This document shows positions 1-16,446 of a DNA stretch of 43,175 nucleotides, one piece after another. The notes under the pieces are model-generated. The model searched no databases and had not been told where the DNA came from. It saw nothing but the letters and a program-made list of their open reading frames with translations. The position numbers were made by a program, and so were the translations under genes. Position 1 is the stretch's first letter. Each line of letters opens with the position of its first letter. Source of the stretch: a virus. Location of the stretch: the IMG/VR virus record IMGVR_UViG_3300025151_000082, positions 1 to 43,175 of that record; one strand, given 5' to 3'.

Positions 1-275
1 AATGCAAGTATAAATGGCCCATTTCTAACCAATCTTGGTTATATCCAACTCTACTATCATAGCAATGCTTAATATACCTTGTCAACATACTAAAGTTAAA
101 CACATCATATGGCCAACCTAACCATAAATCAGACGACCTCATATTAGCATGACAGTCTAATTTATTATCTCGTATAGTCCACTGTAAGTTTAGTGTACAT
201 GGTACATCTTTTGTTATACGTGGTTGTTCTCGCCAGATATTACATACAGCTTGTCTTGTATTTTTATCCCTTATT
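1..275. repeat. Left copy of an imperfect end-to-end duplication
   Basis: This segment aligns in the same orientation with 42898-43175. Identity is roughly 90% by eye and higher over the inner 215 bp. One 6-nt length difference keeps the reading frame. Both copies encode the central part of the ThyA-family protein. The mismatches mean it is not an exact assembly overlap or an exact terminal repeat. It could reflect strain variation at a circular join, or tandem paralogues. Confidence 0.85.
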
Positions 276-604
276 AATTTATCAACAACATAACACGACT
301 GATCTACAAACTTAGGACCATAAGCCCCAAAGAATGTAAGATTGTCGTCTGAATAATCACTAATTGTTTTTGAATAAGGTGATATTGACTCTACTCTATT
401 ATCACCAGTTAAAATCCAATATGCTTCTGCAGCCATGAATTTATAACCTAACTTCCTCTTTTTTATTGTTAAGATCGGGTAATTCATATTTATAACAGTA
501 GTCTTAGTAAGTTCATAAGTTTTATATCCTCTAGGACTTATTGGTCTACCATGTTCTACTACTTCTTTTAATGTCTCGATCCAAACATCATTAACATATT
601 GCAT
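1..604 (-). CDS. ThyA-family pyrimidine (hydroxy)methylase, probable dCMP hydroxymethylase; 3' end off the left edge
   Basis: The first 201 codons are present, from ATG at 604, and the frame runs off the window edge. The fold is that of thymidylate synthase and dCMP hydroxymethylase, which transfer a one-carbon unit from methylene-tetrahydrofolate to C5 of a pyrimidine nucleotide. Visible motifs: Glu60 in AEAYWIL, GAYG (93-96), catalytic Cys136 in VPCTLNLQ, and RSSD (156-159). WLGWPYD follows, ending in Asp167. Thymidylate synthase has Asn at that position (E. coli N177), whereas T4 dCMP hydroxymethylase has Asp. ISDYS (81-85) has Ser where E. coli has Trp80. Both differences favour dCMP as substrate and hydroxymethylation as outcome; this is inference from the family. 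The start overlaps the upstream kinase stop by 14 nt. A homologous C-terminal half lies at the right edge. Confidence 0.85.
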   Translation of the reverse strand, partial: MQYVNDVWIETLKEVVEHGRPISPRGYKTYELTKTTVINMNYPILTIKKRKLGYKFMAAEAYWILTGDNRVESISPYSKTISDYSDDNLTFFGAYGPKFVDQSCYVVDKLIRDKNTRQAVCNIWREQPRITKDVPCTLNLQWTIRDNKLDCHANMRSSDLWLGWPYDVFNFSMLTRYIKHCYDSRVGYNQDWLEMGHLYLH

Positions 605-1580
605 GTTTAAGTGCCTCCACTAAATTAACTTTTTTAAATCGCTTAACATACGACGGATGCGGTAACTCTTTATGAATAGCGATTCCATGTTCAGTTACGG
701 CATCGGCCGCATGTCCCCCGAGAGTAACTACCTTAAGCGCCTCAGCCAGGTAGCCTATGTGTTTATTAAATTTACCGTCATGGTCAAAAGCGTTACACCA
801 CATAAGTTTATGTTCATCTATACCAGCCTCATGTAAACACTCAGTTAAGTATAAACTACTATTCTTGTGTTCATAGAAAGGCCAGAACAGCTCACGACTC
901 TTAGGGTTAACTTGCTCTCCAACTATAAGGTATTTTGCGCCATCTAAATGGCCTGCAACATTCCACTCGTTATGTTCTAACGCAGGTGGGTATTGTAATT
1001 CTTGTCTAAGTGATGCAAAATCAATAACTTGTTCTGCATATAAATCTAAATAGTGACCGTGTTCTGCTATGCAGTATCGTTTGTGGTCTCTTAGGTCTTT
1101 AACTCCGCCTGACCTAATTAAATAATCTATGTAGTTACCTTTATCTTCGTGTGACTGGCAACCATACCATAGTTTGTTATATAATACTGAAACATCTGAC
1201 ATATCATCATACATTTCGTATCTACTTTCTTTTAATCTTACAAATCTTTTATTATGTTTTTTATCAGGTAAGCAGTATACATAAACTGCACCTAACTTGC
1301 GAGCTATACGATCTGCTAAGCGACCTTGTAATGGCCAAGCGCTGCCATTACGAAAGACAGAGGAGTAAACCGCCTCAGAAGGCCACCATCTATCTATTAC
1401 CACCGGTACGGTGCTACGAGATGCAAAACGTATAGCCGCAGTATGGTAGTCGAATATTTTATCCTTCCACCTATAACCTAAGTGTAGGTACTTACCTGAA
1501 AGTTGCTTACACAACTCTCTAGCCAATGTGGTTTTCCCTACACCGTCAGGACCATCAAGAATGATGATTTGTCTGCTCAT
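591..1580 (-). CDS. dNMP (thymidylate-like) kinase fused to a uracil-DNA-glycosylase-like domain
   Basis: The protein has 329 aa from the ATG at 1580, which overlaps the MazG stop as ATGA; ATG 1586 is an alternative. Residues 1-150 form a P-loop nucleoside-monophosphate kinase: GPDGVGKTT (10-18) and DRWWPSEA (63-70), the latter like the DR motif of thymidylate kinases. Residues about 205-325 look like the UDG family 4/5 fold: VGEQ (220-223), CNAF (262-265), VTLGGHAADAV (285-295) and HPSYVKR (308-314). The usual first UDG motif (GExPG) is altered, so glycosylase activity is uncertain and the domain may only bind a base or nucleotide. It sits directly upstream of the ThyA-like gene, so it probably phosphorylates the product of that enzyme. 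The kinase call is firm and the C-terminal call is moderate. Confidence 0.8.
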   Translation of the reverse strand: MSRQIIILDGPDGVGKTTLARELCKQLSGKYLHLGYRWKDKIFDYHTAAIRFASRSTVPVVIDRWWPSEAVYSSVFRNGSAWPLQGRLADRIARKLGAVYVYCLPDKKHNKRFVRLKESRYEMYDDMSDVSVLYNKLWYGCQSHEDKGNYIDYLIRSGGVKDLRDHKRYCIAEHGHYLDLYAEQVIDFASLRQELQYPPALEHNEWNVAGHLDGAKYLIVGEQVNPKSRELFWPFYEHKNSSLYLTECLHEAGIDEHKLMWCNAFDHDGKFNKHIGYLAEALKVVTLGGHAADAVTEHGIAIHKELPHPSYVKRFKKVNLVEALKHAIC

Positions 1581-1927
1581 ACACAATCCTCTAAGTTAGG
1601 TTTTTTCCAACCTACAGGTTTAGAAATACCTGACTTAAAAGTTACGTCTTTGTCACGTACTTTCTTCATGTTAGCCTCATGTACCTTTTGCCATGCTTTA
1701 GAAAAATCATAACCATGTAGAATAGATGTACCGATCGCTATATAGACTAGGTCAACTATTGCATCAAGTTTATCTTCATGTGTTTTTGCATGACAGTATT
1801 CCCAAAGCTCTTCAATCATATGTGTAAAACGTTGCTCATGATAAGTCTTACTTAAAAACTTACCTTTTTTAGGGCAATCCATTTCAAACTTATTAAGAAA
1901 GTCTCTGACGTCTTGTTCTAAGGACAT
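1577..1927 (-). CDS. MazG-like all-alpha nucleotide pyrophosphohydrolase
   Basis: 116 aa. The ATG at 1927 is chosen because GGAG lies 7 nt upstream; 1939 is an in-frame alternative without a clear ribosome site. EELWE (39-43) and DAIVDLV (54-60) give the ExxE/DxxD metal-binding pattern of the MazG/HisE superfamily, followed by the family's typical EANMKKV segment (85-91). Such enzymes split dNTPs or NTPs into the monophosphate and pyrophosphate. Upstream of a dNMP kinase and a ThyA-like enzyme it could clear an unwanted canonical dNTP (dCTP or dUTP), as T4 gp56 does for dCTP. It could equally be a house-cleaning or (p)ppGpp-related MazG. It overlaps the methyltransferase end by 10 nt and the kinase start by 4 nt, so the genes are probably translationally coupled. 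Confidence 0.8.
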   Translation of the reverse strand: MSLEQDVRDFLNKFEMDCPKKGKFLSKTYHEQRFTHMIEELWEYCHAKTHEDKLDAIVDLVYIAIGTSILHGYDFSKAWQKVHEANMKKVRDKDVTFKSGISKPVGWKKPNLEDCV

Positions 1928-2766
1928 AATTGTCTCCAATCTTCAGACGAGGACCAACGACCCTCAATATCAGGTAAACTATTAAACAATCTACCATATG
2001 TTTCGTTAGTTGCTGTTTTAGTCAACTCCCAAATACAGTTACGTGAGTGCTGAGGAAACATAGGGGCAAAGATCGTAGACAAATAGTTAGTATCGTAATA
2101 CTCCCTAAACTTCTCAAAAACATAACTTAAGTTTGGGTCTGTTTCAACCATATGTTTATAATCTTTGATACTAGCGAAAGTACCCCAATGACCTCTGATT
2201 CCAAAGCCTACATCTTCAATCATAGCTCCTAATGCTTGATAAGTCATTTCGTTGATATGATTGTTAGCAGCACCTACATCTGGGTCCCAGCAAGGTGTAC
2301 TAATAAATGCAGTACCTTCTACTTCTAATAGTTCATATATTTTACCTAGCATGCGTCTAGCATGTTCAGGCGCTACATGTTCTAGCACTTCAAAACATAC
2401 AATCGTGTTAGGTGGTTCGTTAAAGTCTTTAGTACCTAAAGTACAAATATCTGTACTACCTGCTAGCTTAGGCTTCCAACCAGCCTTAGCAAATTGATCT
2501 GGCATCGTTAATTTGTTAACATCGACTGCATAATACTCAGATGGTTTCATGCGTGATGAATGCATTAACTTAGCTAGTGGTATCTCTTTACCACAACCGA
2601 TATCTAAGACACGTGCTGTAGCATAACGCTTTTGATTCATCAAATGCTTGGTCACGTGAGTCCATCTTAAACAGTGAGCTATATAGTCACGATGTAAGAA
2701 CCCTCTTGACTCCGCACTATCGATCGATAGCATAGTCTTGTCAATCTTCCTCTTAGGGTTTGGCAT
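1918..2766 (-). CDS. Class I SAM-dependent methyltransferase
   Basis: 282 aa from the ATG at 2766, preceded by GGAGGAG and overlapping the upstream stop as TAATG; an in-frame ATG at 2793 is less likely. Motif I is VLDIGCG (53-59), with YYAVDV following as the acidic strand-2 motif. CFEVLEHV and the FISTPCWD strand are typical of small-molecule or Methyltransf_11/23 type enzymes. No DPPY/NPPY or PCQ motif of adenine or cytosine-C5 DNA methyltransferases is visible, so ordinary DNA methylation is not supported. The neighbours are nucleotide-metabolism genes, so a modified nucleotide or base is one possible substrate. A cell-wall, lipid or protein substrate cannot be excluded. Confidence 0.8.
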   Translation of the reverse strand: MPNPKRKIDKTMLSIDSAESRGFLHRDYIAHCLRWTHVTKHLMNQKRYATARVLDIGCGKEIPLAKLMHSSRMKPSEYYAVDVNKLTMPDQFAKAGWKPKLAGSTDICTLGTKDFNEPPNTIVCFEVLEHVAPEHARRMLGKIYELLEVEGTAFISTPCWDPDVGAANNHINEMTYQALGAMIEDVGFGIRGHWGTFASIKDYKHMVETDPNLSYVFEKFREYYDTNYLSTIFAPMFPQHSRNCIWELTKTATNETYGRLFNSLPDIEGRWSSSEDWRQLCP

Positions 2767-3047
2767 TATAATTCTCCTCCACAATGTGGACAATGCTTAA
2801 TTAATTTGTTGTTGCTTATTAGTATATCAATAGCCTGTTTACGGATAAGATAACCTGTATAATAGGTTAAAATCCTAGCAGCTTCTTGACGTGTCCTAAC
2901 TGTCTCGCGAATGCTTTCGAGCAACTCCTTTTGCTCGATAACTTTAGCTTTATAGATAATGTCTAATAGGTAACGTGCTTGTTTTGGCAGAGGCACGTTA
3001 CCTGCACATCTATCGCGAAACATATAATATTTACGCGGCCTTAGCAT
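2766..3047 (-). CDS. Small basic protein with C-terminal CxxC, possible winged-helix
   Basis: 93 aa from ATG 3047, or 85 aa from ATG 3023. The gene overlaps the end of the DUF932 gene and its stop overlaps the methyltransferase start (TAATG). The central region (about 20-75) is helical, with alternating basic and hydrophobic residues that could form a helix-turn-helix. The C-terminus has CPHC, a single metal-knuckle half. No family is recognised. Confidence 0.6.
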   Translation of the reverse strand: MLRPRKYYMFRDRCAGNVPLPKQARYLLDIIYKAKVIEQKELLESIRETVRTRQEAARILTYYTGYLIRKQAIDILISNNKLIKHCPHCGGEL

Positions 3048-3987
3048 ATTCCGTTGCCAAGTCTAACGCTTTACGTTTCATAGTTGCTTTACTACCAAAC
3101 CACGCTGAGCGTAGGGCAGCATTTCTGTCACGACCTGAAACATGATCAGCATAGTACGTGACTGCATTAAGTGCAGACCACCATGTACCTTCTGACATCT
3201 TAGAGCCAGGTTGTTTATGCAATAATTGATGAACTGTTGTAGCAGATCGATTCCAAAGCTCACGTTGTTGAACTTCGTTAACATTATTTGGCATAAATTG
3301 ACGTACGATAAACTCGTTGAGTTTAGCTTCCGTGTATCGTTTCTTAGCTAAGAACTGAGCTTGTTGTTTAAACTCACTGAGTTGTGATTTAGCTAATCCA
3401 AGCGCTTCTTGCGCTCTAAATTGAACAGCTTCATTAAACTCTTGAACGTGTGGCATACGAAACTTCGTAGCACCGGTCTCATTCAAGGCTGCTGTAATTG
3501 TGTTATTGCACACTACACGAATGTTGGTGAACATTATAGTTAATGCTTTACCCCATTGGTGTGGGTGTGAAATAAGTAAATATCCCTCGACATCATCGCC
3601 TTTAGTTACGGAAAAACCATCTTTAATAGAGGCTAATCCCCAAACATGACGACCATCGTCAAGAGAACCCGCTGTGTCCATCTTCATGTCACCAGATTTG
3701 ACAAACTTATTAAAGAAGTCAAAAACGGTGTCATTTTGGATAGGCAAGTAATTTTTACCACAAGGACCGAGAATCTTATTGGTGTCTGATCTGACAAGTA
3801 CATTCCACTCATCAGACTTAACATAAACTTCTCCATTCAAGTGATAAACAGGCTTCTTCTGAACTTGCCACTCAAGGCCAGCGGCTTTCAACATTTGTTG
3901 TGGTGTAAGGTTGTCATCAACTCTTTCACCTAAGCCGTGCCAGGGTGTCTTGCCAGCATAAGCCATAGTATCTACCATGTGTGACAT
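3031..3987 (-). CDS. DUF932 phage/plasmid protein
   Basis: 318 aa, ATG with AGGAG 6-7 nt upstream. It matches the DUF932 (TIGR03299) family of phage and plasmid proteins. The N-terminus has TPWHGLG, followed by the family's LTPQQMLKAAGLEW segment. GPCGKNYLPIQN and FTNIRVVCNNT come further on, the latter in the middle of the protein. The family is widespread in phages and mobile plasmids, and its biochemical role is not established. A promoter-like TATAAT tract lies at 4015-4041, so this gene may head the methyltransferase, MazG, kinase and ThyA transcription unit. Confidence 0.85.
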   Translation of the reverse strand: MSHMVDTMAYAGKTPWHGLGERVDDNLTPQQMLKAAGLEWQVQKKPVYHLNGEVYVKSDEWNVLVRSDTNKILGPCGKNYLPIQNDTVFDFFNKFVKSGDMKMDTAGSLDDGRHVWGLASIKDGFSVTKGDDVEGYLLISHPHQWGKALTIMFTNIRVVCNNTITAALNETGATKFRMPHVQEFNEAVQFRAQEALGLAKSQLSEFKQQAQFLAKKRYTEAKLNEFIVRQFMPNNVNEVQQRELWNRSATTVHQLLHKQPGSKMSEGTWWSALNAVTYYADHVSGRDRNAALRSAWFGSKATMKRKALDLATEYAKAA

Positions 3988-4014
3988 AACTTTCTCCTGT
4001 ATATCTAGTTTACT

Positions 4015-4041
4015 ATTATATTATAAAATACGGAATAAACA
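4015..4041 (-). promoter_or_regulatory. Promoter-like element, short variant of the recurrent box
   Basis: Read on the minus strand this has TGTTTATTC at its upstream end and overlapping TATAAT hexamers downstream. It is 9 nt shorter between the two parts than the four 36-bp boxes at 5331, 6205, 7417 and 39862. It lies in the 63-bp gap before the DUF932 gene. Confidence 0.45.
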
Positions 4042-4050
4042 ATTTAAACA

Positions 4051-4299
4051 TTATTTATTCCATATATCCTCTTTTGGTATTTCGACATCCTCGTTAGTAG
4101 GTGGCCATATCTTTGCAGTTGTATAACCATGTCTTACTAACATGTAGGCAATCTGAGCAGAAACACTTCTCATGTCTCTTTCAGCTGCTACCTTACATGC
4201 CTTATACACATTCTTTGGCAAACTAACTAAGGTGCGCCGACTTTTGATCGGCGCTCTGTTTAGTTTTGGTCTGCCTGCTTTCTTTTTAGGCGTGTCCAT
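4051..4299 (-). CDS. Small basic DNA-binding protein, ribbon-helix-helix-like with AT-hook-like N-terminus
   Basis: 82 aa. The N-terminus KKKAGRPKLNR has the GRP core of an AT-hook. The segment RRTLVSLPKNVYKACKVAAE then RDMRSVSAQI resembles a strand followed by two helices, as in Arc/CopG ribbon-helix-helix proteins. It could be a transcription regulator of phage or host genes. The start overlaps the upstream gene by 14 nt. It is the last gene before the promoter-like element at 4015-4041. Confidence 0.65.
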   Translation of the reverse strand: MDTPKKKAGRPKLNRAPIKSRRTLVSLPKNVYKACKVAAERDMRSVSAQIAYMLVRHGYTTAKIWPPTNEDVEIPKEDIWNK

Positions 4300-4504
4300 T
4301 CTTTTTTGCTTCCTCCTCGACTATACGAGATACATACGAGACCATCTGGCCATCGACACCCATCTCATCAGCCAACAGATTATTAATCTCCTTTGAGATA
4401 TACGTTTGAATGACTCTTTCATATCTGTCTTGACCTAAGCCGACTTCCATACGTTCTACGTAGTCGTCGTCAACTTTAAACTCGATGTGTATATCTATTA
4501 ACAT
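4286..4504 (-). CDS. Hypothetical protein, 72 aa
   Basis: No family is recognised. The start overlaps the previous stop as TAATG, so translation is probably coupled. The protein is acidic (many Asp and Glu), with a predicted helical C-terminal half and a central QTYISKEINNLL helix. Confidence 0.65.
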   Translation of the reverse strand: MLIDIHIEFKVDDDYVERMEVGLGQDRYERVIQTYISKEINNLLADEMGVDGQMVSYVSRIVEEEAKKNGHA

Positions 4505-4698
4505 TAGTCTTCTCCTGATGTTATGATAGACATATCATAGATTCCAGCATCTTGCATACAGCTCATAAGTTCACGAACTATGGCTGACTGCAATTGTCTA
4601 CGTGTAGGTGTGTCATCTAGGTCGTGGGCCGTCATAAACGACCCACTCCAGTCAACATCCTTTTCGTTAAATATTATTTGTAGTTCCATACTAGTCAT
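4504..4698 (-). CDS. Hypothetical protein, 64 aa
   Basis: The start at 4698 (MTSMELQ) is chosen because it lies at the upstream gene's stop (4691). The open frame continues further upstream to 4785, but this would bury the start deep in another gene. Acidic, with no recognised family; ends in TSGED. Confidence 0.6.
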   Translation of the reverse strand: MTSMELQIIFNEKDVDWSGSFMTAHDLDDTPTRRQLQSAIVRELMSCMQDAGIYDMSIITSGED

Positions 4699-4912
4699 CC
4701 TCGCCATTGTAAGGTTCATCGATACAGTTAAGTACATGACCAAAGTGTTTACGGAATACTTTCTTAGCATGTCCGTGATCACCACTAGTCATGTCTGTCC
4801 TAATCGAAGCAATATGTTCAGGCGTCATTTCCATTTGCCTGCCGTACTGCTTGACTAAAGCTATTAGACCGAAGACATTTTGGTTCAGGTCTACTGATAC
4901 TCTACGTGTCAT
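4691..4912 (-). CDS. Hypothetical protein, 73 aa
   Basis: GGAGG lies 7 nt upstream of the ATG, and the start overlaps the previous stop as ATGA. The N-terminus TRRVSVDLNQNVFGLIALVKQYG could be a strand plus helix of a small DNA-binding protein, but no family is recognised. Confidence 0.65.
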   Translation of the reverse strand: MTRRVSVDLNQNVFGLIALVKQYGRQMEMTPEHIASIRTDMTSGDHGHAKKVFRKHFGHVLNCIDEPYNGEDD

Positions 4913-5148
4913 GACACTAACCTCCTTCTATCGGCTAATACCTTACATACTCGGTGCATTTCATGTAGCCTGTAAGCTACACCATCAACTGCATCAAGCA
5001 TGCTCTTTTTTGTTAAGCCAGATCCTAAAGCCTCTAGTGTCTTTAGTTCCTCGGCTGAACACTCATCGAAATAGTCAGACAACAAGGTCTTAGTAGTCCT
5101 GATGAACATATCCATGTGTTGTTTTTGTATATCTAGGTTAGTGTCCAT
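4909..5148 (-). CDS. Hypothetical protein, 79 aa
   Basis: The start at 5148 (MDTNLDIQ) is preferred to 5184 because it limits overlap with the 49-aa gene upstream and follows a GGAGA sequence. Mostly helical, with no recognised domain. It overlaps the next gene as ATGA. Confidence 0.6.
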   Translation of the reverse strand: MDTNLDIQKQHMDMFIRTTKTLLSDYFDECSAEELKTLEALGSGLTKKSMLDAVDGVAYRLHEMHRVCKVLADRRRLVS

Positions 5149-5282
5149 TTTCCAGTCTCCCATTTCCAGACGACTTGAGCACAATCTTTAGACAATCTGC
5201 GATGGAAGACCATCTTACCAGTGTCTGCGTCGAAGTGCACTAAGTATCGTTTGAAGCCATTATATATCTTAATCAGATGCAT
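5133..5282 (-). CDS. Hypothetical protein, 49 aa
   Basis: This short frame runs from ATG 5282, with AGGAG about 6 nt upstream, to TAG at 5133. The product is basic and aromatic (three Trp near the C-terminus, WKWETGKW). It is the first gene downstream of the promoter-like box at 5331-5366. No family is recognised. Confidence 0.65.
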   Translation of the reverse strand: MHLIKIYNGFKRYLVHFDADTGKMVFHRRLSKDCAQVVWKWETGKWTLT

Positions 5283-5330
5283 AATATTCTCCTTTCTTTG
5301 TTAGTGATATATACCCTTTTATATACCATA

Positions 5331-5366
5331 ATTATATTATATATTGAGTTAAGCCCAAAATAAACA
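5331..5366 (-). promoter_or_regulatory. Recurrent 36-bp promoter-like box, copy 2
   Basis: On the minus strand: TGTTTATTTT, then a GGGCTTAACT block, then an AT-rich block with two overlapping TATAAT hexamers. It has the same internal spacing as the boxes at 6205, 7417 and 39862. It lies between a terminator (5476-5541) and the gene starting at 5282. Confidence 0.6.
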
Positions 5367-5475
5367 GATTTGTTATTGAGCCAAAAAAGCCAATACGAGG
5401 ATCGTGACCCTATATATATGATTTTTATAGACATTATTGGCATATTGTATTTATTGAGCCGCACAGCATATTTTG

Positions 5476-5541
5476 AAAAAAAAATCTAGAAAAATCCCTA
5501 TATAGCGATAACGTATTAGGAGATACTGCACTATATAGGGA
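5476..5541 (-). terminator. Rho-independent terminator of the leftward transcript
   Basis: An 11-bp perfect inverted repeat, TCCCTATATAG (top strand 5495-5505) and CTATATAGGGA (5531-5541), flanks a 25-nt loop. On the minus strand it is followed by T5 and, after CTAGA, T9 (5476-5494). It starts 17 nt past the stop of the gene at 5558-5725. The long loop and AT-rich stem are atypical, but the T-tracts are clear. Confidence 0.65.
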
Positions 5542-5557
5542 CCCACCGACGGAGGTG

Positions 5558-5725
5558 TTATTGTTGTTCTTTCATTAATTCATCCTTGAAAGCTTTCTCA
5601 TAAAATCCTTGTATAACGATATTCAGCATCTCATGCTGTTTAACCCCATAAAACGCTGCCATAATATTTAGCAGACGTTTAGTTTCCGCCGTCATGAGAT
5701 AACGGTATTGGTATTGTTTAGGCAT
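5558..5725 (-). CDS. Small ribbon-helix-helix-like protein, 55 aa
   Basis: This short frame runs from ATG 5725 to TAA 5558. YQYRYLMTAETKRLLNIMAA then FYGVKQHEMLNIVIQGFYE resembles a strand-helix-helix CopG/Arc arrangement, so a DNA-binding regulator is possible. The start overlaps the previous stop by 8 nt, and a terminator follows directly. Confidence 0.6.
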   Translation of the reverse strand: MPKQYQYRYLMTAETKRLLNIMAAFYGVKQHEMLNIVIQGFYEKAFKDELMKEQQ

Positions 5726-5942
5726 TTTTCCACTGTACTCCTATTTTGTTAAATTTCTTTATTTCTTCCAGTTGTTTCTTGGTAATACCATAGTATTCAC
5801 AAGGATTATCAACTCTAAACCTAGAGCATTCAGACATTGTGGGATCGACGATCCACGTACCTTCATACTCAAAACCCAGCTTTTCTTCAGCTAGTTCTAT
5901 CTTGGGCTGTATTTTCTGACAACCCTTTGATATTTTTGCCAT
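5718..5942 (-). CDS. Hypothetical protein, 74 aa
   Basis: AGGAGG lies 6 nt upstream of the ATG. The protein contains two Cys (CSRFRVDNPC) but no recognisable zinc motif. No family is recognised. It lies in a run of three genes downstream of the promoter-like box at 6205-6240. Confidence 0.6.
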   Translation of the reverse strand: MAKISKGCQKIQPKIELAEEKLGFEYEGTWIVDPTMSECSRFRVDNPCEYYGITKKQLEEIKKFNKIGVQWKNA

Positions 5943-5952
5943 ATTTGTCCTC

Positions 5953-6186
5953 CTAATTGTTAATTATTTCATCGGCACCATGATGTGGTTCATCTTCCAA
6001 ATTAAATGCACGGAGGTCTTCCAATTGCATTGGTTTTCTGAGGCGAAACTCCACGAATGGATTTCCACCAGCAGGACCAATAGCTGAAATAACCTTCATG
6101 CTACCTTCATATTTTTGGATAAAACCACATAAATCACCGAAATTGGCGTCTTCCGCGACGTCAACTCTATAGATATATATAGTCAT
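5953..6186 (-). CDS. Hypothetical protein, 77 aa
   Basis: AGGAGAAAGT precedes the ATG. A small, mixed alpha/beta, acidic protein with no recognised family. It is the first gene after the promoter-like box at 6205-6240. Confidence 0.6.
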   Translation of the reverse strand: MTIYIYRVDVAEDANFGDLCGFIQKYEGSMKVISAIGPAGGNPFVEFRLRKPMQLEDLRAFNLEDEPHHGADEIINN

Positions 6187-6204
6187 ACTTTCTCCTGTCT
6201 TATT

Positions 6205-6240
6205 ATTATATTATATAATCAGTTTATCCGAAAATAAACA
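6205..6240 (-). promoter_or_regulatory. Recurrent 36-bp promoter-like box, copy 1
   Basis: On the minus strand: TGTTTATTTT, CGGATAAACT, then GATTATATAATATAAT. Two overlapping TATAAT hexamers serve as a candidate -10. The upstream part contains an exact inverted repeat GTTTAT/ATAAAC around TTTCGG, which could be an operator or an activator site. The distance to the ATG of the next gene is about 20 nt. Confidence 0.65.
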
Positions 6241-6244
6241 GATT

Positions 6245-6475
6245 TTATTCTCCTTTCATTATAGTTCCGTCTGGTAGTTCTAGGTCATATTGGTCTGAAG
6301 CATTCCACCACCACCAATTTTTAACCATCTCCTCATTCCTTATTGTCCACTTTGTAGACATATGGGGATCTGAGTCGCCAGTGGTGACATCAGGGAATTT
6401 TCTACATACTTCTTCCCAAAATGCCACCTCCGCATTATCTACCAGATCGGTAAGTTTAATTACCGGTCTAGCCAT
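6245..6475 (-). CDS. Hypothetical protein, 76 aa
   Basis: GGAGG precedes the ATG. The product contains a cluster of Trp (NWWWWNAS) and a C-terminal strand-rich segment. No family is recognised. Confidence 0.6.
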   Translation of the reverse strand: MARPVIKLTDLVDNAEVAFWEEVCRKFPDVTTGDSDPHMSTKWTIRNEEMVKNWWWWNASDQYDLELPDGTIMKGE

Positions 6476-6486
6476 TATTATCCTCC

Positions 6487-6696
6487 TTATATTAAATTTA
6501 CAATATCACAGCATTGATTCATGCGAAGCTCTTGGGCTTTCTCATCATCATTATCTTTTTCGGTCATTTCCATGAAACTTTCCATGAATTCAAAACCTTC
6601 AAGATCTAAAAACTTCTCAAACCCATTGCTGCTAAACAATTTTTTGCGAAGTTCTGCTGCGATACTAACTTTTTCTTTCAAAGTTAATACCTTCAT
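6487..6696 (-). CDS. Hypothetical protein, 69 aa
   Basis: GGAGA precedes the ATG. Acidic, helical, with repeated FMESFMEMTEKDNDDE. No family is recognised. Confidence 0.6.
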   Translation of the reverse strand: MKVLTLKEKVSIAAELRKKLFSSNGFEKFLDLEGFEFMESFMEMTEKDNDDEKAQELRMNQCCDIVNLI

Positions 6697-6699
6697 TTT

Positions 6700-6915
6700 T
6701 TATTCTCCAATTATTTCTTTTTCATTACCGACTTTGTTGATTACCGCATTATAAACGGCCGTCCATAACTCAAGTTTATCATCTCCAACAAACTCAGTAC
6801 CTTTTAGGAATCTGATTGTTGGGATAATATTACCCATTATATGGTCGGTCATTTTATGACAGTCCTCATCATTTAAGCCGGCAGATCTGAAATGGTCTTT
6901 TAAAGACTCATCCAT
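6700..6915 (-). CDS. Hypothetical protein, 71 aa
   Basis: GGAGG precedes the ATG. No recognised family; acidic and mostly helical. It follows the hairpin at 6944-6970. Confidence 0.6.
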   Translation of the reverse strand: MDESLKDHFRSAGLNDEDCHKMTDHIMGNIIPTIRFLKGTEFVGDDKLELWTAVYNAVINKVGNEKEIIGE

Positions 6916-6943
6916 ATTTGCCTCCGTTTTTTATATTAATTAA

Positions 6944-6970
6944 GGGGACTCCAGAATATCTGGAATCCCC
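6944..6970 (-). terminator. Strong hairpin between two leftward genes, probable attenuator or terminator
   Basis: GGGGA plus TCCAGA pair with TCTGGA plus TCCCC around a 3-nt loop with one C/A mismatch. This gives 11 pairs in 27 nt. The minus-strand sequence after it is AT-rich but lacks a long U-run, so termination is likely partial. It lies 10 nt downstream of the stop of the 127-aa gene. Confidence 0.5.
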
Positions 6971-6980
6971 CATTTATTAC

Positions 6981-7364
6981 CTATCCATTTTTAGGGGATA
7001 GACAACCCAAACAACCTCTTCCAAGAGGGTCTGAACCTAGAAACCAATTACGATAGAATCCAAGGATTCTTTCAGCTGGTTGTCTAATAAGACCTTCTGG
7101 GTTATCTTTCGATTTCTTACCCAAAAGTTTCTTATCAGCCGCTAATTTCTTAGCGATATTTTCTAGGTCTGCCCAAGAGTATGTTTTACCATTCTCTAAA
7201 GCACCCATTATAACCAAGGCTTGTTTAGGATAACCGCTAAGATTATCCAACTTTTTAAAAGTATAGGTAGTACCTTTCGATACTTTTTCTACTTTCTTTT
7301 CAACCGCTTTGGTTATATTTTTGGAAATAGGTTGGTTTTTTATAGAATTAGTCTGTAAGTCCAT
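6981..7364 (-). CDS. Lysine-rich hypothetical protein, 127 aa
   Basis: GGAGG precedes the ATG. The N-terminal 45 residues are very Lys-rich (KAVEKKVEKVSKG) and probably disordered or nucleic-acid binding. The middle (TYSWADLENIAKK) could be a small helical domain. Two Cys near the end (GCLGC) are present. No family is recognised. It heads its own unit, with a promoter-like box and a 5' hairpin upstream. Confidence 0.65.
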   Translation of the reverse strand: MDLQTNSIKNQPISKNITKAVEKKVEKVSKGTTYTFKKLDNLSGYPKQALVIMGALENGKTYSWADLENIAKKLAADKKLLGKKSKDNPEGLIRQPAERILGFYRNWFLGSDPLGRGCLGCLSPKNG

Positions 7365-7394
7365 AATTAACCTCCAATTTCTTCTTTCTAATTA

Positions 7395-7415
7395 GGGGGA
7401 TTATTCCCCCCAATT
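7395..7415 (-). promoter_or_regulatory. Hairpin at the predicted 5' end of the leftward transcript
   Basis: On the minus strand AATTGGGGGG, AATAAT loop, then CCCCC and TAATT form a stem of at least 5 G-C pairs, extended by AATT/AATT. It starts about 7 nt after the candidate -10 of the box at 7417-7452. The mRNA would therefore begin with the stem. A 5' stem can protect mRNA from decay; a regulator or terminator role is possible. Confidence 0.5.
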
Positions 7416-7416
7416 A

Positions 7417-7452
7417 TTTATATTATAAATAGAGTTTGTCCGAAAATAAACT
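7417..7452 (-). promoter_or_regulatory. Recurrent 36-bp promoter-like box, copy 3
   Basis: On the minus strand: AGTTTATTTT, CGGACAAACT, then an AT-rich block containing TATAAT. Spacing is identical to the copies at 6205 and 5331. It precedes the gene starting at 7364. Confidence 0.6.
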
Positions 7453-7761
7453 ACTATTTTAGCCTATTTTTAAATTAATTTTATATTTACGGATCGGAAA
7501 TGATTAAATATCAGTTTTAATCGGGACCGCGCGCGATTTCTAATAGAGTCTTGACGGACTATTTCCGACAGGAGAGGCATAAACCAGTCGCATTTGACAC
7601 TTCGCGGACGTCCCTGAATCGGGTATCTTAATCCGAGAACTCCCGACCCCTAAAAATGCGCCCTTCTCTGCCTGCCTATAGCAGAAACCACGATATGGGG
7701 TTGTTAGTTCAAGTTCAAATTGTCACTTATACAATCATAGGCATCACCTCATAATATTGTA
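7453..7761. other. Longest noncoding stretch (309 bp), GC-enriched
   Basis: No plausible gene is seen on either strand. G+C over 7501-7740 is about 46% by count, above the surrounding genes. It includes GGGACCGCGCGCG near 7524 and many CG dinucleotides. No tRNA, iteron array or long inverted repeat could be found by eye. An origin, a regulatory RNA or remnant sequence are open possibilities. Confidence 0.5.
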
Positions 7762-8019
7762 TTAGTCTTGTAAATACTCGTAGATTTGGTATAAACCTAA
7801 ATCTTTAGAGTTCTCTTCGCTCAATGCCAAGACGCGTCCATATGTAACACCCTGGTAAAAACCACAGTGTTCACACCAATGTACAATTGAGTCTGTAGGT
7901 TCGCTACAATACTCAGTTATCATTTTTTGGCCACAATCTGGACAATTGAGTCTCTTTTCTATAAGATTACTCACGTTGTCTCCTATTGTTGGTGGGACAT
8001 CCATGTCCCGGTTTATCAT
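7762..8019 (-). CDS. Small zinc-ribbon protein
   Basis: 85 aa from ATG 8019. A GTG at 7974 with AGGAG 6 nt upstream is an equally good start and would give 70 aa beginning MSNLIEK. Two metal knuckles, CPDCG and CEHCG, lie about 23 residues apart, as in single zinc-ribbon proteins. Its role in the phage is unknown; possibly nucleic-acid or protein binding. Confidence 0.65.
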   Translation of the reverse strand: MINRDMDVPPTIGDNVSNLIEKRLNCPDCGQKMITEYCSEPTDSIVHWCEHCGFYQGVTYGRVLALSEENSKDLGLYQIYEYLQD

Positions 8020-8020
8020 C

Positions 8021-8389
8021 CTACTTGCTAGTGTCAGCTAGATCAAGTTTGTAGTGTATACCACTAAACAAACGTTGTCTTTTAGGACCATCTGACTTTT
8101 TAAGGTCAAAGTAGTACTTCAGACATGCTTTAGGTGCTAAACGGTACTTATCAGAGTAACCGTCTATGCCTTCTGCAGCGTGACGTTTGTTAAGCTCATC
8201 AAGGTAAGTATAGAATGAAGTGATAGACAAAGTCTTATCAGCCATTCCATCTTCCTCGATAGTCTCCCAAAGCTTAATAAGTTGATAAGGAACAAGTTCC
8301 AAAGTCATCTTACCAGCAGCTTTAAGAGAGCTAGCGCTTACAATCTCGATCGAACCAATACCAGACTTAGCATAAATTGCCAGTTTCAT
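8021..8389 (-). CDS. Hypothetical protein, 122 aa
   Basis: GGAG lies about 9 nt upstream of the ATG. No recognised domain; a mixed alpha/beta N-terminus (MKLAIYAKSGIGSIEIV) and a basic C-terminal half. The stop is next to the zinc-ribbon gene's ATG. Confidence 0.6.
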   Translation of the reverse strand: MKLAIYAKSGIGSIEIVSASSLKAAGKMTLELVPYQLIKLWETIEEDGMADKTLSITSFYTYLDELNKRHAAEGIDGYSDKYRLAPKACLKYYFDLKKSDGPKRQRLFSGIHYKLDLADTSK

Positions 8390-8414
8390 AGTATTATCTC
8401 CGTCGATAGTTATA

Positions 8415-8435
8415 CTAGAGGACCTATTCCTCTAG
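8415..8435 (-). terminator. Perfect 8-bp inverted repeat over a stop codon
   Basis: CTAGAGGA and TCCTCTAG flank a 5-nt loop and include the stop region of the 38-aa gene. No U-run follows, so it is more likely an attenuator or mRNA-stability hairpin than a full terminator. Confidence 0.4.
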
Positions 8436-8540
8436 CTTGTTTATTAACTCTTGAATTGACACTTCTTCCGGATCAACCGAAGTAAGAGCCTCCTCTAGAG
8501 CTGCGAGCTCACGAATGAGCTCGTCGATGTCATTTATCAT
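8424..8540 (-). CDS. Acidic coiled-coil-like microprotein, 38 aa
   Basis: This short frame starts at ATG 8540 with GGAGG about 7 nt upstream and ends at TAG 8424. It is Leu- and Glu-rich (ELIRELAALEEAL) with no recognised family. Strong ribosome site and fit in the gene run support it. Confidence 0.55.
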   Translation of the reverse strand: MINDIDELIRELAALEEALTSVDPEEVSIQELINKLEE

Positions 8541-8584
8541 GACACACCTCCTGCTTTCGCTGTTATAGTTAACTCACGAATTCT

Positions 8585-8791
8585 TTATAGCTTGTACTTA
8601 AATATGTACTTACTCCAAATAAAACTTCTAACAATACTCACACACATCATTATTAGTGATATTTCGATGCATTCCCAAACATTAATAAATACTCCATATA
8701 CAGGAAATACATGTACTTGTATGAGCACTGCTATTAACAGTCCACTTCCTATATCCATTAGTCGGTGGATCCAGTGCTTCCAATTGTCCAT
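8585..8791 (-). CDS. Small membrane protein, 68 aa
   Basis: The ATG at 8791 (MDNWKHW) is chosen because GGGAG lies upstream; a frame opening at 8827 would include that site. Two hydrophobic segments (about 15-34 and 40-55) suggest two membrane passes. Function unknown; an inner-membrane effector on the host is possible. Confidence 0.55.
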   Translation of the reverse strand: MDNWKHWIHRLMDIGSGLLIAVLIQVHVFPVYGVFINVWECIEISLIMMCVSIVRSFIWSKYIFKYKL

Positions 8792-8800
8792 AATCTTATT

Positions 8801-8817
8801 CTCCCGGCTCTTAACCT
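8801..8817 (-). repeat. 17-bp repeated ribosome-site leader, copy A
   Basis: Identical to 9023-9039. On the minus strand it contains GGTTAAGAGCCGGGAG, so it supplies the ribosome-binding site of the gene starting at 8791. Confidence 0.7.
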
Positions 8818-8854
8818 TTGGGCCCATTCTCCATCGGGACTTGTTGTTGTGCTA

Positions 8855-9013
8855 CTAAACAGAGTAGAAGCAACACATTCTTTTACTGTCTTTATCTTCG
8901 TGATAAATAACATAGATCTTATAGTTATTCAATAAGCGTTGCAGCTTATAGAGTGGTAACTTACGATCTACATTCTTATAACGAAGTATACCTTCTAGAT
9001 ATACTTCCCACAT
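8855..9013 (-). CDS. Hypothetical protein, 52 aa
   Basis: Frame from ATG 9013 (GGGAGG 7 nt upstream) to tandem stops TAGTAG at 8855. Basic and Tyr-rich, with CC near the C-terminus. No family is recognised. Confidence 0.55.
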   Translation of the reverse strand: MWEVYLEGILRYKNVDRKLPLYKLQRLLNNYKIYVIYHEDKDSKRMCCFYSV

Positions 9014-9022
9014 GGTACTATC

Positions 9023-9039
9023 CTCCCGGCTCTTAACCT
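9023..9039 (-). repeat. 17-bp repeated ribosome-site leader, copy B
   Basis: Identical to 8801-8817; supplies the ribosome site of the gene starting at 9013. It suggests duplication of a leader with its gene slot. Confidence 0.7.
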
Positions 9040-9088
9040 AGTTATTAATTAAACCTACTACTGTGTAGTGGTTATTAGTTATTAGTGA

Positions 9089-9208
9089 TTAACTATTAAT
9101 TAATCGTCTAAAGCGTCTTTGTGATATATGCTTTATATTCATTGTTTCTTTTATTTTCATTAACATCTTACTAGATTCATAAGACATTCTTTTGTTATTG
9201 TATTTCAT
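9089..9208 (-). CDS. Very basic microprotein, 39 aa
   Basis: Frame from ATG 9208 with AGGAG about 7 nt upstream to TAA 9089. It is rich in Lys and Arg (QRRFRRLIN) with no recognised family. It would be the first gene of the leftward arm, next to the divergent promoter region. Short length keeps confidence moderate. Confidence 0.5.
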   Translation of the reverse strand: MKYNNKRMSYESSKMLMKIKETMNIKHISQRRFRRLINS

Positions 9209-9224
9209 AGTTTTCTCCTATAAA

Positions 9225-9238
9225 GGGCCCCGGGGGGC
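9225..9238. other. GC-only palindromic tract upstream of the terminase genes
   Basis: GGGCCCCGGGGGGC, 14 bp of pure G/C, in an otherwise AT-rich divergent region 123 bp before the small terminase gene. It contains GGGCCC and CCCCGGGG palindromes. It may be a packaging or protein-binding site, or a leader hairpin of the leftward transcript. Confidence 0.4.
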
Positions 9239-9295
9239 ATAATAAGAATAATGATTTATTCTCTTACCAACCGCGAATTTGGGGAGGGGATCTTT

Positions 9296-9324
9296 TTGAC
9301 TTCTGACAAAATTCGTAAAATAAT
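9296..9324 (+). promoter_or_regulatory. Candidate sigma70-type promoter for the late operon
   Basis: TTGACT (9296-9301), a 17-nt spacer, then AATAAT (9319-9324). This is the best -35/-10 match in the divergent region. A second, weaker candidate is TGTACA (9325) with TATAAA (9348), which would start transcription at about the terminase ATG itself. Confidence 0.5.
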
Positions 9325-9360
9325 TGTACAAATTCCGAAATAAGTGTTATAAATATTCAT

Positions 9361-9654
9361 ATGGCAAATGGTGGCAAAAGACCTGGAGCTGGGAGACCAG
9401 TTGGGTCAAAGAACAAAAGGACTCAGGAAATCCAAGATCGGTTAGATGACCTTGGTGTAGACCCTATTGAAGGTTTAGCAATGATTGTTAAAGACCCGAA
9501 CAATAGTTCTGAGTTAAAATTTCAATGTTTAAAGGAGCTAGCACAATATGTAGCGCCGAAGCGTAAAGCTGTCGACGTTAACCAAGTGTCAACAGGAGAG
9601 ATGACAATCGAAGTTGTCAAATTCTCAGACGATGAAGATCAGAATACCACATAA
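9361..9654 (+). CDS. terS: Terminase small subunit (putative)
   Basis: 97 aa directly before and overlapping the large terminase. The N-terminus GGKRPGAGRPVGSKNKR is a typical basic, AT-hook-like opening of phage small terminases. It is followed by a helical region and a LKELAQYVAPKRKAV segment that resembles other short TerS proteins. It would recognise phage DNA for packaging and regulate TerL. The start lacks an obvious Shine-Dalgarno sequence. Confidence 0.7.
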   Translation: MANGGKRPGAGRPVGSKNKRTQEIQDRLDDLGVDPIEGLAMIVKDPNNSSELKFQCLKELAQYVAPKRKAVDVNQVSTGEMTIEVVKFSDDEDQNTT

Positions 9655-10927
9655 CTGGAAACCAAGAGACTATCAACTTCCACTCTGGAAGTTCTTAGAG
9701 AAAGGTGGCAAACGGGCTGTAGCAGTATGGCACCGTCGTGCTGGCAAAGATTTGTGTTCAATAAACTGGTGTGCAGTATGCGCGTTAAAGCGTCCAGGAC
9801 TATACTGGCATCTCTTCCCAACCTATAACCAAGGACGGAAAATAGCGTGGGACGGTATGACCAGGGACGGTCGTAAGTTTATTGACCACTTTCCAGAAGA
9901 ATTAGTAGCAGCTAAAAATAATACTGAAATGAGATTAACCTTGAAGAACGGTTCAATCTACCAGGTTGTCGGTACAGATAACGTAGACAGACTGATCGGA
10001 GCCAATCCAGTAGGTGTAATCTTTTCAGAGTACTCGGTCCAAGACCCACGGGCCTGGGATTATATCAGACCTATCCTTGCAGAAAATGAAGGTTGGGCAG
10101 TATTTATCTATACAGCTAGGGGCCGTAATCACGGGTATGAACTGTATAGTATGGGACGTAAAAATGAGAAATGGTTTAGTCAGAGTCTGTCGATCGACGA
10201 TACACGGGCTGTGACCCAAGAGGCAATTGACGATGAACGCGACGCTGGAATGCCTGAGGAGATGATCCAGCAAGAGTTCTATTGCTCATTCGACGCTCCT
10301 TTAGTCGGGTCGTACTATGGTAACCCAATGGCAAAAGCTCTGGCCGATAAGCGAATTGTTAAGGTACCGTACGATCCGCTATTGGACGTGCATACCGCCT
10401 GGGACTTAGGTATGGGAGATAGTACTAGTATAATATTTTATCAGACCGTTGGTTCTGAGGTCAGGCTTATTGATTACTATGAAAACCAAGGAGAAGGCTT
10501 AGCCCATTATATAAAGATACTAAGAGAAAAGGATTACGTTTACGGAGAACACATCGCTCCACATGATATTAAGGTGAGAGAGATGTCAACGGGTCGATCT
10601 CGTCTTGAGTCGGCACGGGATTTAGGAATTAAGTTCCGTGTCATCCCTAACCTAAGAATAGAAGACGGGATTGAAGCGGTCAGGACTATATTACCTAGGT
10701 GTTACTTTGACGAGGATAAATGTTCACACCTGATCGAAGCTTTAAGACAGTACAGGAAAGATTTTGACGAGAAGAATAAATGCTTTAAAGATAGACCATT
10801 ACACGATTGGTCTTCCCACCCAGCAGATGCTATGAGGTATATGGCCCTAGCTATTAGAGATAGACAGAATACTAAAATGAAAAAACTACCTAGACAAGCA
10901 GACCAGGAGTATCAGATATTAGGATAA
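9632..10927 (+). CDS. terL: Terminase large subunit
   Basis: 431 aa from ATG 9632; a TTG at 9614 would add 6 residues. It is the ATP-driven motor and nuclease that packages DNA into proheads. The Walker A variant HRRAGKD is at 34-40, and VIFSEYS is the Walker B-like strand, both typical of this TerL branch. The C-terminal nuclease domain begins near HTAWDLGMGDSTS and continues with HDIKV and RSRLESARDLG. Length is normal for compact podoviral TerL. It overlaps the small subunit by 23 nt. Confidence 0.92.
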   Translation: MKIRIPHNWKPRDYQLPLWKFLEKGGKRAVAVWHRRAGKDLCSINWCAVCALKRPGLYWHLFPTYNQGRKIAWDGMTRDGRKFIDHFPEELVAAKNNTEMRLTLKNGSIYQVVGTDNVDRLIGANPVGVIFSEYSVQDPRAWDYIRPILAENEGWAVFIYTARGRNHGYELYSMGRKNEKWFSQSLSIDDTRAVTQEAIDDERDAGMPEEMIQQEFYCSFDAPLVGSYYGNPMAKALADKRIVKVPYDPLLDVHTAWDLGMGDSTSIIFYQTVGSEVRLIDYYENQGEGLAHYIKILREKDYVYGEHIAPHDIKVREMSTGRSRLESARDLGIKFRVIPNLRIEDGIEAVRTILPRCYFDEDKCSHLIEALRQYRKDFDEKNKCFKDRPLHDWSSHPADAMRYMALAIRDRQNTKMKKLPRQADQEYQILG

Positions 10928-10938
10928 GACCGTTTACA

Positions 10939-11373
10939 GTGGCTGATATTGAGCCAATGATTACTCTAGGGGAGAAGATGCATGAAGAATCAAACTTTAA
11001 ACATCTGAACCTAGATCGTCAAAAATTAACACAATTAGGCTATTTTGCCATAGCTAATCCTGATGTTTATTATGCTATTGTAGCAGAAGATGAAAATAAA
11101 TGTATAAAAGGTATGTTCGTTGGGTTAATAACAGAGTATTATTTTGGTAAAGACCTTATGGCAACTGATTTATTGGTATATGTTGATAAGTCAAAAAGGG
11201 GAGCCATGGCGTCAGTATTAATGTTTAAGGAGTTCGAAAAATGGGCTACAAGAAAAAACGCAAAAGAGGTAAGACCGGCGACTAGTACCGGTATTGAGAT
11301 TGAGAGGACCAGAAAATTGTATAGACATTTAGGATATGAAGTTTCAGGAAATACCTTCAGGAAGGTGCTTTAA
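10939..11373 (+). CDS. GNAT-family N-acetyltransferase
   Basis: 144 aa from GTG 10939. It fits the GNAT fold: an acidic N-terminal helix, a central YYAIVAEDENKCIKGMFVG strand pair, DLLVYVDKSKRGAMASVL where the acetyl-CoA loop normally sits (R/QxxGxG-like but degenerate), and the C-terminal RKLYRHLGYE segment. GNATs occur next to terminase or portal genes in several podoviruses. The substrate is unknown and could be a phage or host protein. Its stop overlaps the next start (TAATG). Confidence 0.75.
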   Translation: MADIEPMITLGEKMHEESNFKHLNLDRQKLTQLGYFAIANPDVYYAIVAEDENKCIKGMFVGLITEYYFGKDLMATDLLVYVDKSKRGAMASVLMFKEFEKWATRKNAKEVRPATSTGIEIERTRKLYRHLGYEVSGNTFRKVL

Positions 11374-11591
11374 TGTGCGGCGGCGGAGGATATAGTCCCC
11401 CACCACCACCTCCACCACCTCCACCTCCTAAAAAGGCGGAAGTGCAAAAACCAGTTGCAGATTATGCAGCTATTGAGCGTAAAGCAAAAGGTAGACAATC
11501 TACTTTAATGACTGCTGGTAAAGCTCAAGGTTTAGTAGGTATGGAAAATATCCAGAAAAAAAGATTAATGGGAAGTTATACTGAGACCTAA
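11373..11591 (+). CDS. Polyproline small protein preceding the portal
   Basis: 72 aa. It starts MCGGGGYS and then has a run of 11 prolines (codons from about 11397), followed by a helical basic segment. Such MCGGG/polyproline proteins are common just before T7-like portal genes. Their role is unclear, but virion assembly is likely from position. The Pro run would make ribosomes depend on EF-P. It is coupled to both neighbours by TAATG overlaps. Confidence 0.7.
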   Translation: MCGGGGYSPPPPPPPPPPPKKAEVQKPVADYAAIERKAKGRQSTLMTAGKAQGLVGMENIQKKRLMGSYTET

Positions 11592-13204: not shown

Positions 13205-13439
13205 ACTAAACGAATTACACGATTCTTATCGCGCCGTGTTCAACACCAAAGACGGTGAGCGCGTGCTAGAACACCTAAGTAAGGTATGTTTCTTAGATGT
13301 AACATCCTTTACTCCAGGTGACCCACACAGTACATCTTTTAAAGAAGGACAAAGAAGTATTGTACTACAAATCCTGAAGTTCATTGAACGAGATCCGAAG
13401 GAAATATTGCGATTAGTCGCAGGAGAAAATTATGAGTGA
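13188..13439 (+). CDS. Bbp19-like small phage protein
   Basis: 83 aa from GTG 13188. AVFNTKDGERVLEHLSKVCF and SFKEGQRSIVLQILKFIERD match the small Bbp19-like family found beside podoviral portal genes. The function is not established, but assembly is likely. Its end overlaps the scaffold start by 8 nt. Confidence 0.7.
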   Translation: MARKPKLNELHDSYRAVFNTKDGERVLEHLSKVCFLDVTSFTPGDPHSTSFKEGQRSIVLQILKFIERDPKEILRLVAGENYE

Positions 13440-14277: not shown

Positions 14278-14292
14278 ATAAATACAGGATAT

Positions 14293-14373
14293 AATCCGGA
14301 TTAACGGGTAGCTCATAGAGTCCGTAACCGAGACCCAGGTATAGGGTAGTAGTGGTCCGAAAGGGCAACCATT
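14293..14373 (+). ncRNA. Structured 5' leader of the major capsid mRNA (candidate)
   Basis: The 128-bp gap holds four successive inverted repeats. These are the AATCCGGATT palindrome (14293-14302) and ACGG-GCTC-ATA-GAGT-CCGT (14304-14325, with a 3-nt bulge). ACCC/GGGT (14333-14347) follows. The last is AGTGGT-CC-GAAA-GG-GCA-ACCATT (14351-14373), with a GNRA tetraloop and a GCA bulge. The capsid ribosome site (AAGGAGGA) follows at 14393-14400. A regulatory or mRNA-stabilising leader, or a processing site, would suit the most highly expressed gene. No tRNA or known ribozyme core fits. Confidence 0.5.
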
Positions 14374-14405
14374 GCGATAAGTTTAACTTTTGAAGGAGGA
14401 CAATT

Positions 14406-16445: not shown

Positions 16446-16446
16446 A

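Follow-up and report, generated by a model that had tools for sequence, protein, structure and literature searches.

A portable phage gene cassette predicted to replace cytosine in the manner of T4, with exchangeable putative decorating enzymes

Gene content of the cassette

The window analysed here is the whole 43,175-base stretch (positions 1 to 43,175) of IMG/VR virus record IMGVR_UViG_3300025151_000082, a complete viral record classed as linear, in which a compact cassette of nucleotide-modifying genes lies across the contig ends. The structural genes of the record (terminase, portal-type head-tail adaptor, major head protein, tail tubular and internal virion proteins) run rightward, and the replication genes run leftward and cross the contig ends. 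On the minus strand, from upstream to downstream, the cassette encodes a methyltransferase (MTase), a MazG-like protein, a kinase fused to a domain resembling uracil-DNA glycosylase (UDG), a ThyA-like protein and a dCMP deaminase, followed by the DNA polymerase PolA, which relatives of the window also have next to their cassette. Adjacent open reading frames (ORFs) of the cassette overlap by a few bases.

1918-2793, minus strand: S-adenosylmethionine (SAM)-dependent MTase, class I (Methyltransf_23, Pfam E=1.8e-12)
1577-1939, minus strand: MazG-like all-alpha NTP pyrophosphohydrolase, PRA-PH (PF01503 E=2.7e-7; phrog_671 E=3e-17)
591-1586, minus strand: kinase-UDG fusion, a TMK-type P-loop (d)NMP kinase with a UDG-superfamily-like domain (phrog_761 thymidylate kinase E=3e-13)
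2-604, minus strand: putative ThyA-like pyrimidine hydroxymethylase, N-terminal 201 aa, running off the window start (PF00303 E=1.4e-19)
42731-43174, minus strand: C-terminal part of ThyA on the opposite contig end, in a diverged version (Thymidylat_synt E=1e-12)
42274-42753, minus strand: dCMP deaminase (PF00383 E=1.3e-20; phrog_174 E=2e-38)
40473-42335, minus strand: PolA, family A DNA polymerase with a 3'-5' exonuclease domain, downstream of the cassette (PF00476 E=8e-60)

An earlier note on this DNA had described leftward genes running across the join to PolA, a description that matches the ORFs and their Pfam and phrog families. The interval it gave for them, 591-2766, holds the kinase-UDG gene, the MazG gene and most of the MTase gene, whereas the ThyA, deaminase and PolA genes lie outside it, across the join. 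The catalytic residues of the MazG-like protein (E43, E44, E47, D59 and D63) are conserved in at least 44 of 46 cases, and the conserved zinc motifs of the deaminase, HAE and PCxxC, are intact in the window. We propose that the MazG-like protein is a putative dCTPase in the role of T4 gp56.

The contig join falls within the ThyA-like gene, which in relatives is one intact ORF of about 250-290 aa. The join is inexact, since positions 1-269 and 42898-43172 are only 89% identical over 275 aligned positions, with small indels. Most likely the two contig ends carry strain variants of a single ThyA gene in a circularly mapping genome; the record, though classed linear, would then be effectively circular, with a strain bubble probably left in the assembly at its ends. 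Strain variation rather than a second gene is indicated because relatives carry a single ThyA ORF, and on this ground, together with the 89% overlap, the idea that the contig ends hold a tandem pair of ThyA genes was rejected.

The ThyA active site

The window ThyA was aligned with its relatives, E. coli thymidylate synthase (EcTS, whose numbering is used here), T4 gp42, SPO1 gp29 and the Xp12-like enzyme of phage AXL1, which belongs to the same genus as Xp12 and served as the comparator for 5-methylcytosine (5mC). The window protein belongs to fold family PF00303, and all aligned sequences possess the catalytic Cys146. The N-terminal window fragment carries Tyr83, Asp143, Cys146, Thr147 and Asp177, and the C-terminal fragment Asp143, Thr147, Asp177, His207 and Tyr209. 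Position 177 is Asp in both fragments, in all relatives, in T4 (as Asp179) and in AXL1, and Asn in SPO1 and EcTS; Asp177 is documented as a determinant of dCMP over dUMP (PMC8670742, PMC6400193), and positions 177 and 147 are the top two separating modified-cytosine contigs (PMC8670742). At position 143, the window, T4 (as Asp145) and SPO1 have Asp, AXL1 has Asn and EcTS has Leu, while position 147 is Thr in the window and T4 and Pro in AXL1. Tyr or Phe replaces Trp83 in the cassette ThyA proteins, and T4 Asp145 together with loss of Trp83 are features of hydroxylation, Asp145 being connected with hydroxylation in place of hydride transfer (PMC6400193). The dUMP hydroxymethylase of SPO1 shows the pattern Asp143/Asn177. 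The C-terminal PVAI tail of thymidylate synthase (TS) is missing from the window ThyA, and among solved structures the CMP hydroxymethylase MilA matches it best. By its residues the window ThyA has a dCMP hydroxymethylase active site of the T4 gp42 type, and this is the activity we predict for the enzyme.

Among the homologous loci compared with the window (labelled here by L-numbers), a ThyA from a Mediterranean Votkovvirus (MedDCM; L063:6488-7246) has Asp177 but Val143 and Cys147, unlike its relative HTVC200P, and may make a different product.

Conservation and spread

Searches seeded with the kinase-UDG protein, with ThyA and with a ThyA profile yielded 110 distinct ThyA loci, most with flanks of 8-10 kb and not phylogenetically independent of one another. 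The exact order MTase-MazG-kinase/UDG-ThyA-deaminase recurs in 54 of the 110, which excludes a chance arrangement, and most of the others have the same order minus one element; the conservation of gene order that the earlier note had put forward as a check is thereby borne out. The set obtained with the ThyA profile involves no selection for the other cassette genes; 57 of its loci have sufficient flanks, and these encode the MTase in 45 cases, MazG in 49, the kinase in 52, the UDG-like domain in 36 and the deaminase in 51.

The cassette spans podovirus-like contigs and a cultured siphovirus, Stenotrophomonas phage AXL3, and has the identical order in AXL3 and in Pseudoxanthomonas phage PW916. 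It is also found in a Manatee Spring podovirus and, in reduced form, in Pelagibacter phages. AXL3 and PW916 differ from the window in being siphoviruses of high GC content with proteins about 30% identical to those of the window (kinase 31%, MTase 30%), and their authors took the genes to serve thymidylate synthesis. In a ThyA tree, the window groups with L002-L005 and L076 (support 100/99), apart from the group containing AXL3. The cassette is common in phages and contigs of about 35-65 kb, contrary to the earlier suggestion that this would be an unusually small version in a 43-kb podovirus.

An MTase-seeded scan of genome contigs recovered four relatives, three of them on cassette-bearing contigs of metagenome-assembled genomes (MAGs) and the fourth (45% identity) the only cassette gene on a short contig of a Nitrospiraceae MAG (L069:4550-5320). 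Nitrospira is likewise matched by genes of AXL3 (PMC7504290), which suggests a phage or prophage of that group.

Exchange of the putative decorating gene

Loci without the MTase carry other genes in association with the core. Three of them (L049, L051 and L054) encode a homologue of the T4 beta-glucosyltransferase (BGT) between ThyA and the deaminase (PDB 1bgt E=3e-25; PF09198 E=4e-16), and PF09198 occurs in exactly 3 of 46 whole records, namely these, none of which bears the MTase. The BGT homologue (L049:10765-11892) sits in a small MazG-ThyA-BGT-deaminase cassette on phage contigs of about 24-40 kb. Other MTase-less loci (L110, L120, L126, L132, L139 and L145) encode an SGNH-like protein, a PALP-fold pyridoxal phosphate (PLP) enzyme and a 403-aa protein (X403) beside the core genes, and this set is confined to MTase-less loci.

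L110:2878-6808, L120:3739-6998, L126:9148-11868 and L139:3063-6117: SGNH/X403/PALP gene set beside the predicted dCMP-hydroxymethylase core, in the place of the MTase

The set has the look of a further, so far undescribed module for cytosine hypermodification. In the ThyA tree, where some loci labelled 'none' for the decorator are merely incomplete contigs, L139 and L110 branch inside the AXL3-like MTase clade.

A fixed core of MazG, kinase, ThyA and deaminase is therefore joined by a single end-module, of which at least three alternatives occur. Because one end-module has known 5-hydroxymethylcytosine (5hmC) chemistry, a 5hmC product is supported and an MTase acting on 5hmC is suggested, and because the MTase excludes both BGT and the SGNH/PLP set, we infer that it is an alternative decorator of 5hmC. 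The same exclusion lends support to the earlier guess that the MTase could be a hypermodifier. In the whole window record there was no PF09198 match, in agreement with the earlier statement that no glucosyltransferase was recognised, and no glycosyltransferase among the Pfam hits, the alpha-glucosyltransferase family not having been searched on its own. A carbamoyltransferase was rejected as decorator, none being found in the window or in 48 records searched, nearly all of them cassette-bearing.

At the MTase-less locus L133, a 362-aa ORF upstream of MazG (L133:5698-6783) has a glycosyltransferase-like start and is a candidate for a further decorator; it gave no PDB or Pfam match, and its sole match was phrog_14998 (function unknown).

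The methyltransferase

Among the many folds near the AlphaFold model of the MTase (predicted local distance difference test, pLDDT, 88), the nearest are CmoM and ChlM (Z about 19), HEN1 (17) and UbiG (16), all of which are O-methyltransferases. Conservation across 81 sequences reaches at least 97% at twenty-eight positions, and E135, E138, H139, N178, H179 and E182 (ExxEH...NHxxE) are invariant in all 81. The ExxEH motif aligns with UbiG and Hen1, and the further histidine, H179, lies beyond those alignments; we take ExxEH in UbiG and Hen1, and the further histidine, to be metal-binding. It is plausible that the MTase is a metal-dependent O-methyltransferase whose target is the hydroxymethyl group, although the fold is a generic one. 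Strand 4 (130-134) ends in FEVLEH and the next long strand (161-168) in STPCWD, and motif IV of DNA methylases (PCQ or D/S/NPPY) is absent from the strand 4 end. The earlier note had likewise seen no DNA-methylase motif, and a DNA C5, N4 or N6 methylase was rejected for this reason. Among the papers listed in a literature search on cytosine in bacteriophages, none mentioned a 5-methoxymethyl form.

The kinase-UDG fusion

In the model of the fusion protein (pLDDT 90), the kinase occupies about residues 1-175 and the UDG-like domain about residues 200-331 (window 989-591). The kinase half is closest to human TMK and to YorR of SPbeta (3kb2; Z about 14), and its P-loop residues G12, G17, K18 and T20 as well as D65-R66-x-W68-x-x-E71 are invariant (alignment A4). 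The UDG-like half has Foldseek matches to T. maritima UDG (TmUDG, 1l9g) and UdgX (6iod), together with a PF03167 match at E=4e-4, below the curated cut-off; a profile search of this part alone against the PDB was weak, with a best E of 0.13 and UDG entries on top. In place of GE-x-PG, motif 1 of UDG family 4, the window has GEQVNPK and most other sequences GExFxxxK, and the Glu is not invariant; P37, F38, N66, H111 and P112 are invariant or nearly so (alignment A6). As the motif-1 Glu varies while F38, N66 and H111-P112 are kept, the base pocket appears to be retained and the domain may bind a base without cutting it.

Restriction resistance of AXL3

Evidence on DNA carrying the cassette comes from AXL3, which was cut by 2 of 37 enzymes, TasI (AATT) and Tru1I (TTAA), both with A/T-only sites, and was resistant to KpnI and Eam1105I (PMC7504290). 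The 5mC DNA of Xp12 is fully cut by KpnI and by AhdI, the isoschizomer of Eam1105I (PMC7653180), and AXL1 DNA is partially cut by KpnI and Eam1105I (PMC9206674). Since AXL3 resists enzymes whose sites in 5mC DNA are cleaved, 5mC alone does not explain its resistance, and the base in AXL3 is probably not 5mC. In MetaGPA, TS, PRA-PH and dCMP deaminase co-occur on modified-cytosine phage contigs (PMC8670742); the 5-carbamoyloxymethylcytosine system described there resembles the window in having this core plus a decorating enzyme and differs in that its decorator is a carbamoyltransferase.

Proposed pathway and alternatives

We posit that the MazG-like enzyme would remove dCTP by converting it to dCMP, which the ThyA-like enzyme would hydroxymethylate to 5-hydroxymethyl-dCMP; the fused kinase would phosphorylate this product towards the triphosphate, the deaminase would drain leftover dCMP to dUMP, and PolA would polymerise DNA containing 5hmC. 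The MTase would then modify 5hmC further, in the role that BGT has in T4 and in the MTase-less relatives, O-methylation being the favoured chemistry. The steps are those of the T4 pathway of gp56 dCTPase, gp42, gp1 kinase, cd deaminase and the glucosyltransferases a-gt and b-gt; gp42 shares Asp143/Thr147/Asp177, and a b-gt homologue is present in cassette relatives lacking the MTase. The window differs from T4 in its tight operon in a small phage, its MazG-like protein in the gp56 role, its TMK-type kinase fused to a UDG-like domain, its SAM methyltransferase where no glucosyltransferase was recognised, and its replication by PolA. The T4-like logic proposed in the earlier note is well supported by the ThyA residues, the conserved order and the restriction resistance of AXL3.

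That the cassette yields a cytosine modified at C5 is very probable, and that the base is 5hmC only slightly less so. On balance we favour the overall reading, in which the operon would replace genomic cytosine completely in the T4 style and the MTase would decorate the resulting 5hmC; decoration by the MTase, taken separately, is likewise somewhat favoured, and O-methylation as its specific form is a tentative proposal. Equally tentative is an undescribed base, 5hmC capped by a SAM-dependent O-methyltransferase (5-methoxymethylcytosine, for example), with the methyl cap in the role of glucose and the kinase-UDG protein handling the modified nucleotide or base. Several points count against decorated 5hmC. 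The mutual exclusion is based on few lineages, with one origin for BGT and 2-3 changes for PALP; the MTase has a generic fold, and the proteins closest to it in fold have many different substrates; the modification of AXL3 was left without identity by its authors (PMC7504290). Plain 5hmC is possible because searches of the window revealed neither a glucosyltransferase nor a carbamoyltransferase, and twelve marine loci of the Pelagibacter-phage group consist of kinase and ThyA with no matches to MTase, MazG or deaminase nearby, so that a decorator is not universal.

The alternative of most weight, though clearly less probable than a decorating MTase, keeps the 5hmC pathway and leaves the DNA undecorated, the MTase methylating RNA (2'-O at 3' ends as Hen1 does, or tRNA) or a metabolite. 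Hen1 and the tRNA-modifying CmoM are among its nearest folds, it has profile matches to Hen1, and phrog_4752 is annotated 'tRNA methyltransferase'; against this, the MTase keeps its place in one operon, directly upstream of MazG-kinase-ThyA, in more than 75 distinct loci from two deep ThyA clades, and it is exclusive with BGT and the SGNH/PLP set. Rather improbable is a reading in which the kinase-UDG protein is itself a base hypermodifier, its UDG-like domain binding or flipping 5hmC in DNA, its kinase phosphorylating the hydroxymethyl group and the MTase or another enzyme finishing the modification. The fusion of a kinase to a fold for DNA-base recognition invites this idea, as do the UDG-superfamily proteins Brig1 and Brig3, which recognise glucosyl-5hmC and 5hmC, respectively, in DNA (PMC13160076), and the precedent of a 5hmdU DNA kinase acting on the thymine base (PMC7653180). 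A DNA-level kinase is possible; however, the kinase resembles nucleotide kinases (TMK, YorR), and a nucleotide kinase with an added domain is favoured because, in BGT loci (L051, L054) and in the Pelagibacter-phage group, the same ThyA is accompanied by the kinase lacking the UDG-like domain.

A very small chance attaches to ThyA making 5-methyl-dCMP and the genome containing 5mC, as in Xp12. The Xp12-like (Bosavirus) enzyme shares Asp177 with the window, and AXL1/Xp12-type phages likewise combine a TS-like enzyme, a pyrophosphohydrolase and a dCMP deaminase with G/C-dependent restriction resistance (PMC9206674). Their system differs in Asn143/Pro147 where the window and T4 have Asp/Thr, in having no adjoining MTase-kinase/UDG pair, and in a dihydrofolate reductase (DHFR) gene, which in AXL1 adjoins the deaminase; no DHFR was found among the early-region ORFs scanned, and the KpnI and Eam1105I resistance of AXL3 also speaks against 5mC. 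Less probable still is ordinary nucleotide salvage, in which deaminase, thymidylate synthase and thymidylate kinase would raise dTTP. The authors of AXL3 and PW916 annotated the genes in this sense and the deaminase does feed dUMP, but Asp177 and Asp143 are wrong for a thymidylate synthase, AXL3 has a separate ThyX-type enzyme, and its DNA is resistant at G/C-containing sites.

Other features of the record

Upstream of the MTase lie two further leftward genes.

2766-3047, minus strand: 93-aa small conserved neighbour with a zinc-ribbon-like C-terminus, in the same place upstream of the MTase in close relatives L002-L013
3031-3987, minus strand: DUF932 protein (PF06067 E=1.4e-41), kept in close relatives, outside the core cassette

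Elsewhere in the window, three consecutive genes at 38256-39828 match the families of cyanophage Pam3 gp32-gp34 and form a conserved block adjoining PolA, an archaeo-eukaryotic-type primase (AEP-TOTE) with PriCT_1 at 36707-38188 is used with PolA, and a UPF0102-like, nuclease-like ORF lies at 33385-33765. A megablast search of window positions 1-20000 against annotated phage records gave no match.

Significance

The cassette genes have been annotated piecemeal, and the TS/PRA-PH/deaminase core is already known from MetaGPA; no description of the full cassette with MTase and kinase-UDG, or of the decorator exchange, was found in the literature searched. New here is the observation that MTase-less loci carry a BGT homologue or the SGNH/PLP set, neither of which co-occurs with the MTase. 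T4-style cytosine replacement would on this reading be a widespread, portable cassette in small phages, with a fixed core and an exchangeable decorator, and with the kinase-UDG fusion as its unexplained partner. A vague 'methyltransferase' annotation becomes a specific prediction of chemistry, open to test in the isolated phage AXL3. New decorations of 5hmC bear on restriction, on 5hmC-specific glycosylase defences such as Brig3 and on tools for reading cytosine modifications, and, if the prediction is true, phages may hold a cytosine decoration that nobody has described.

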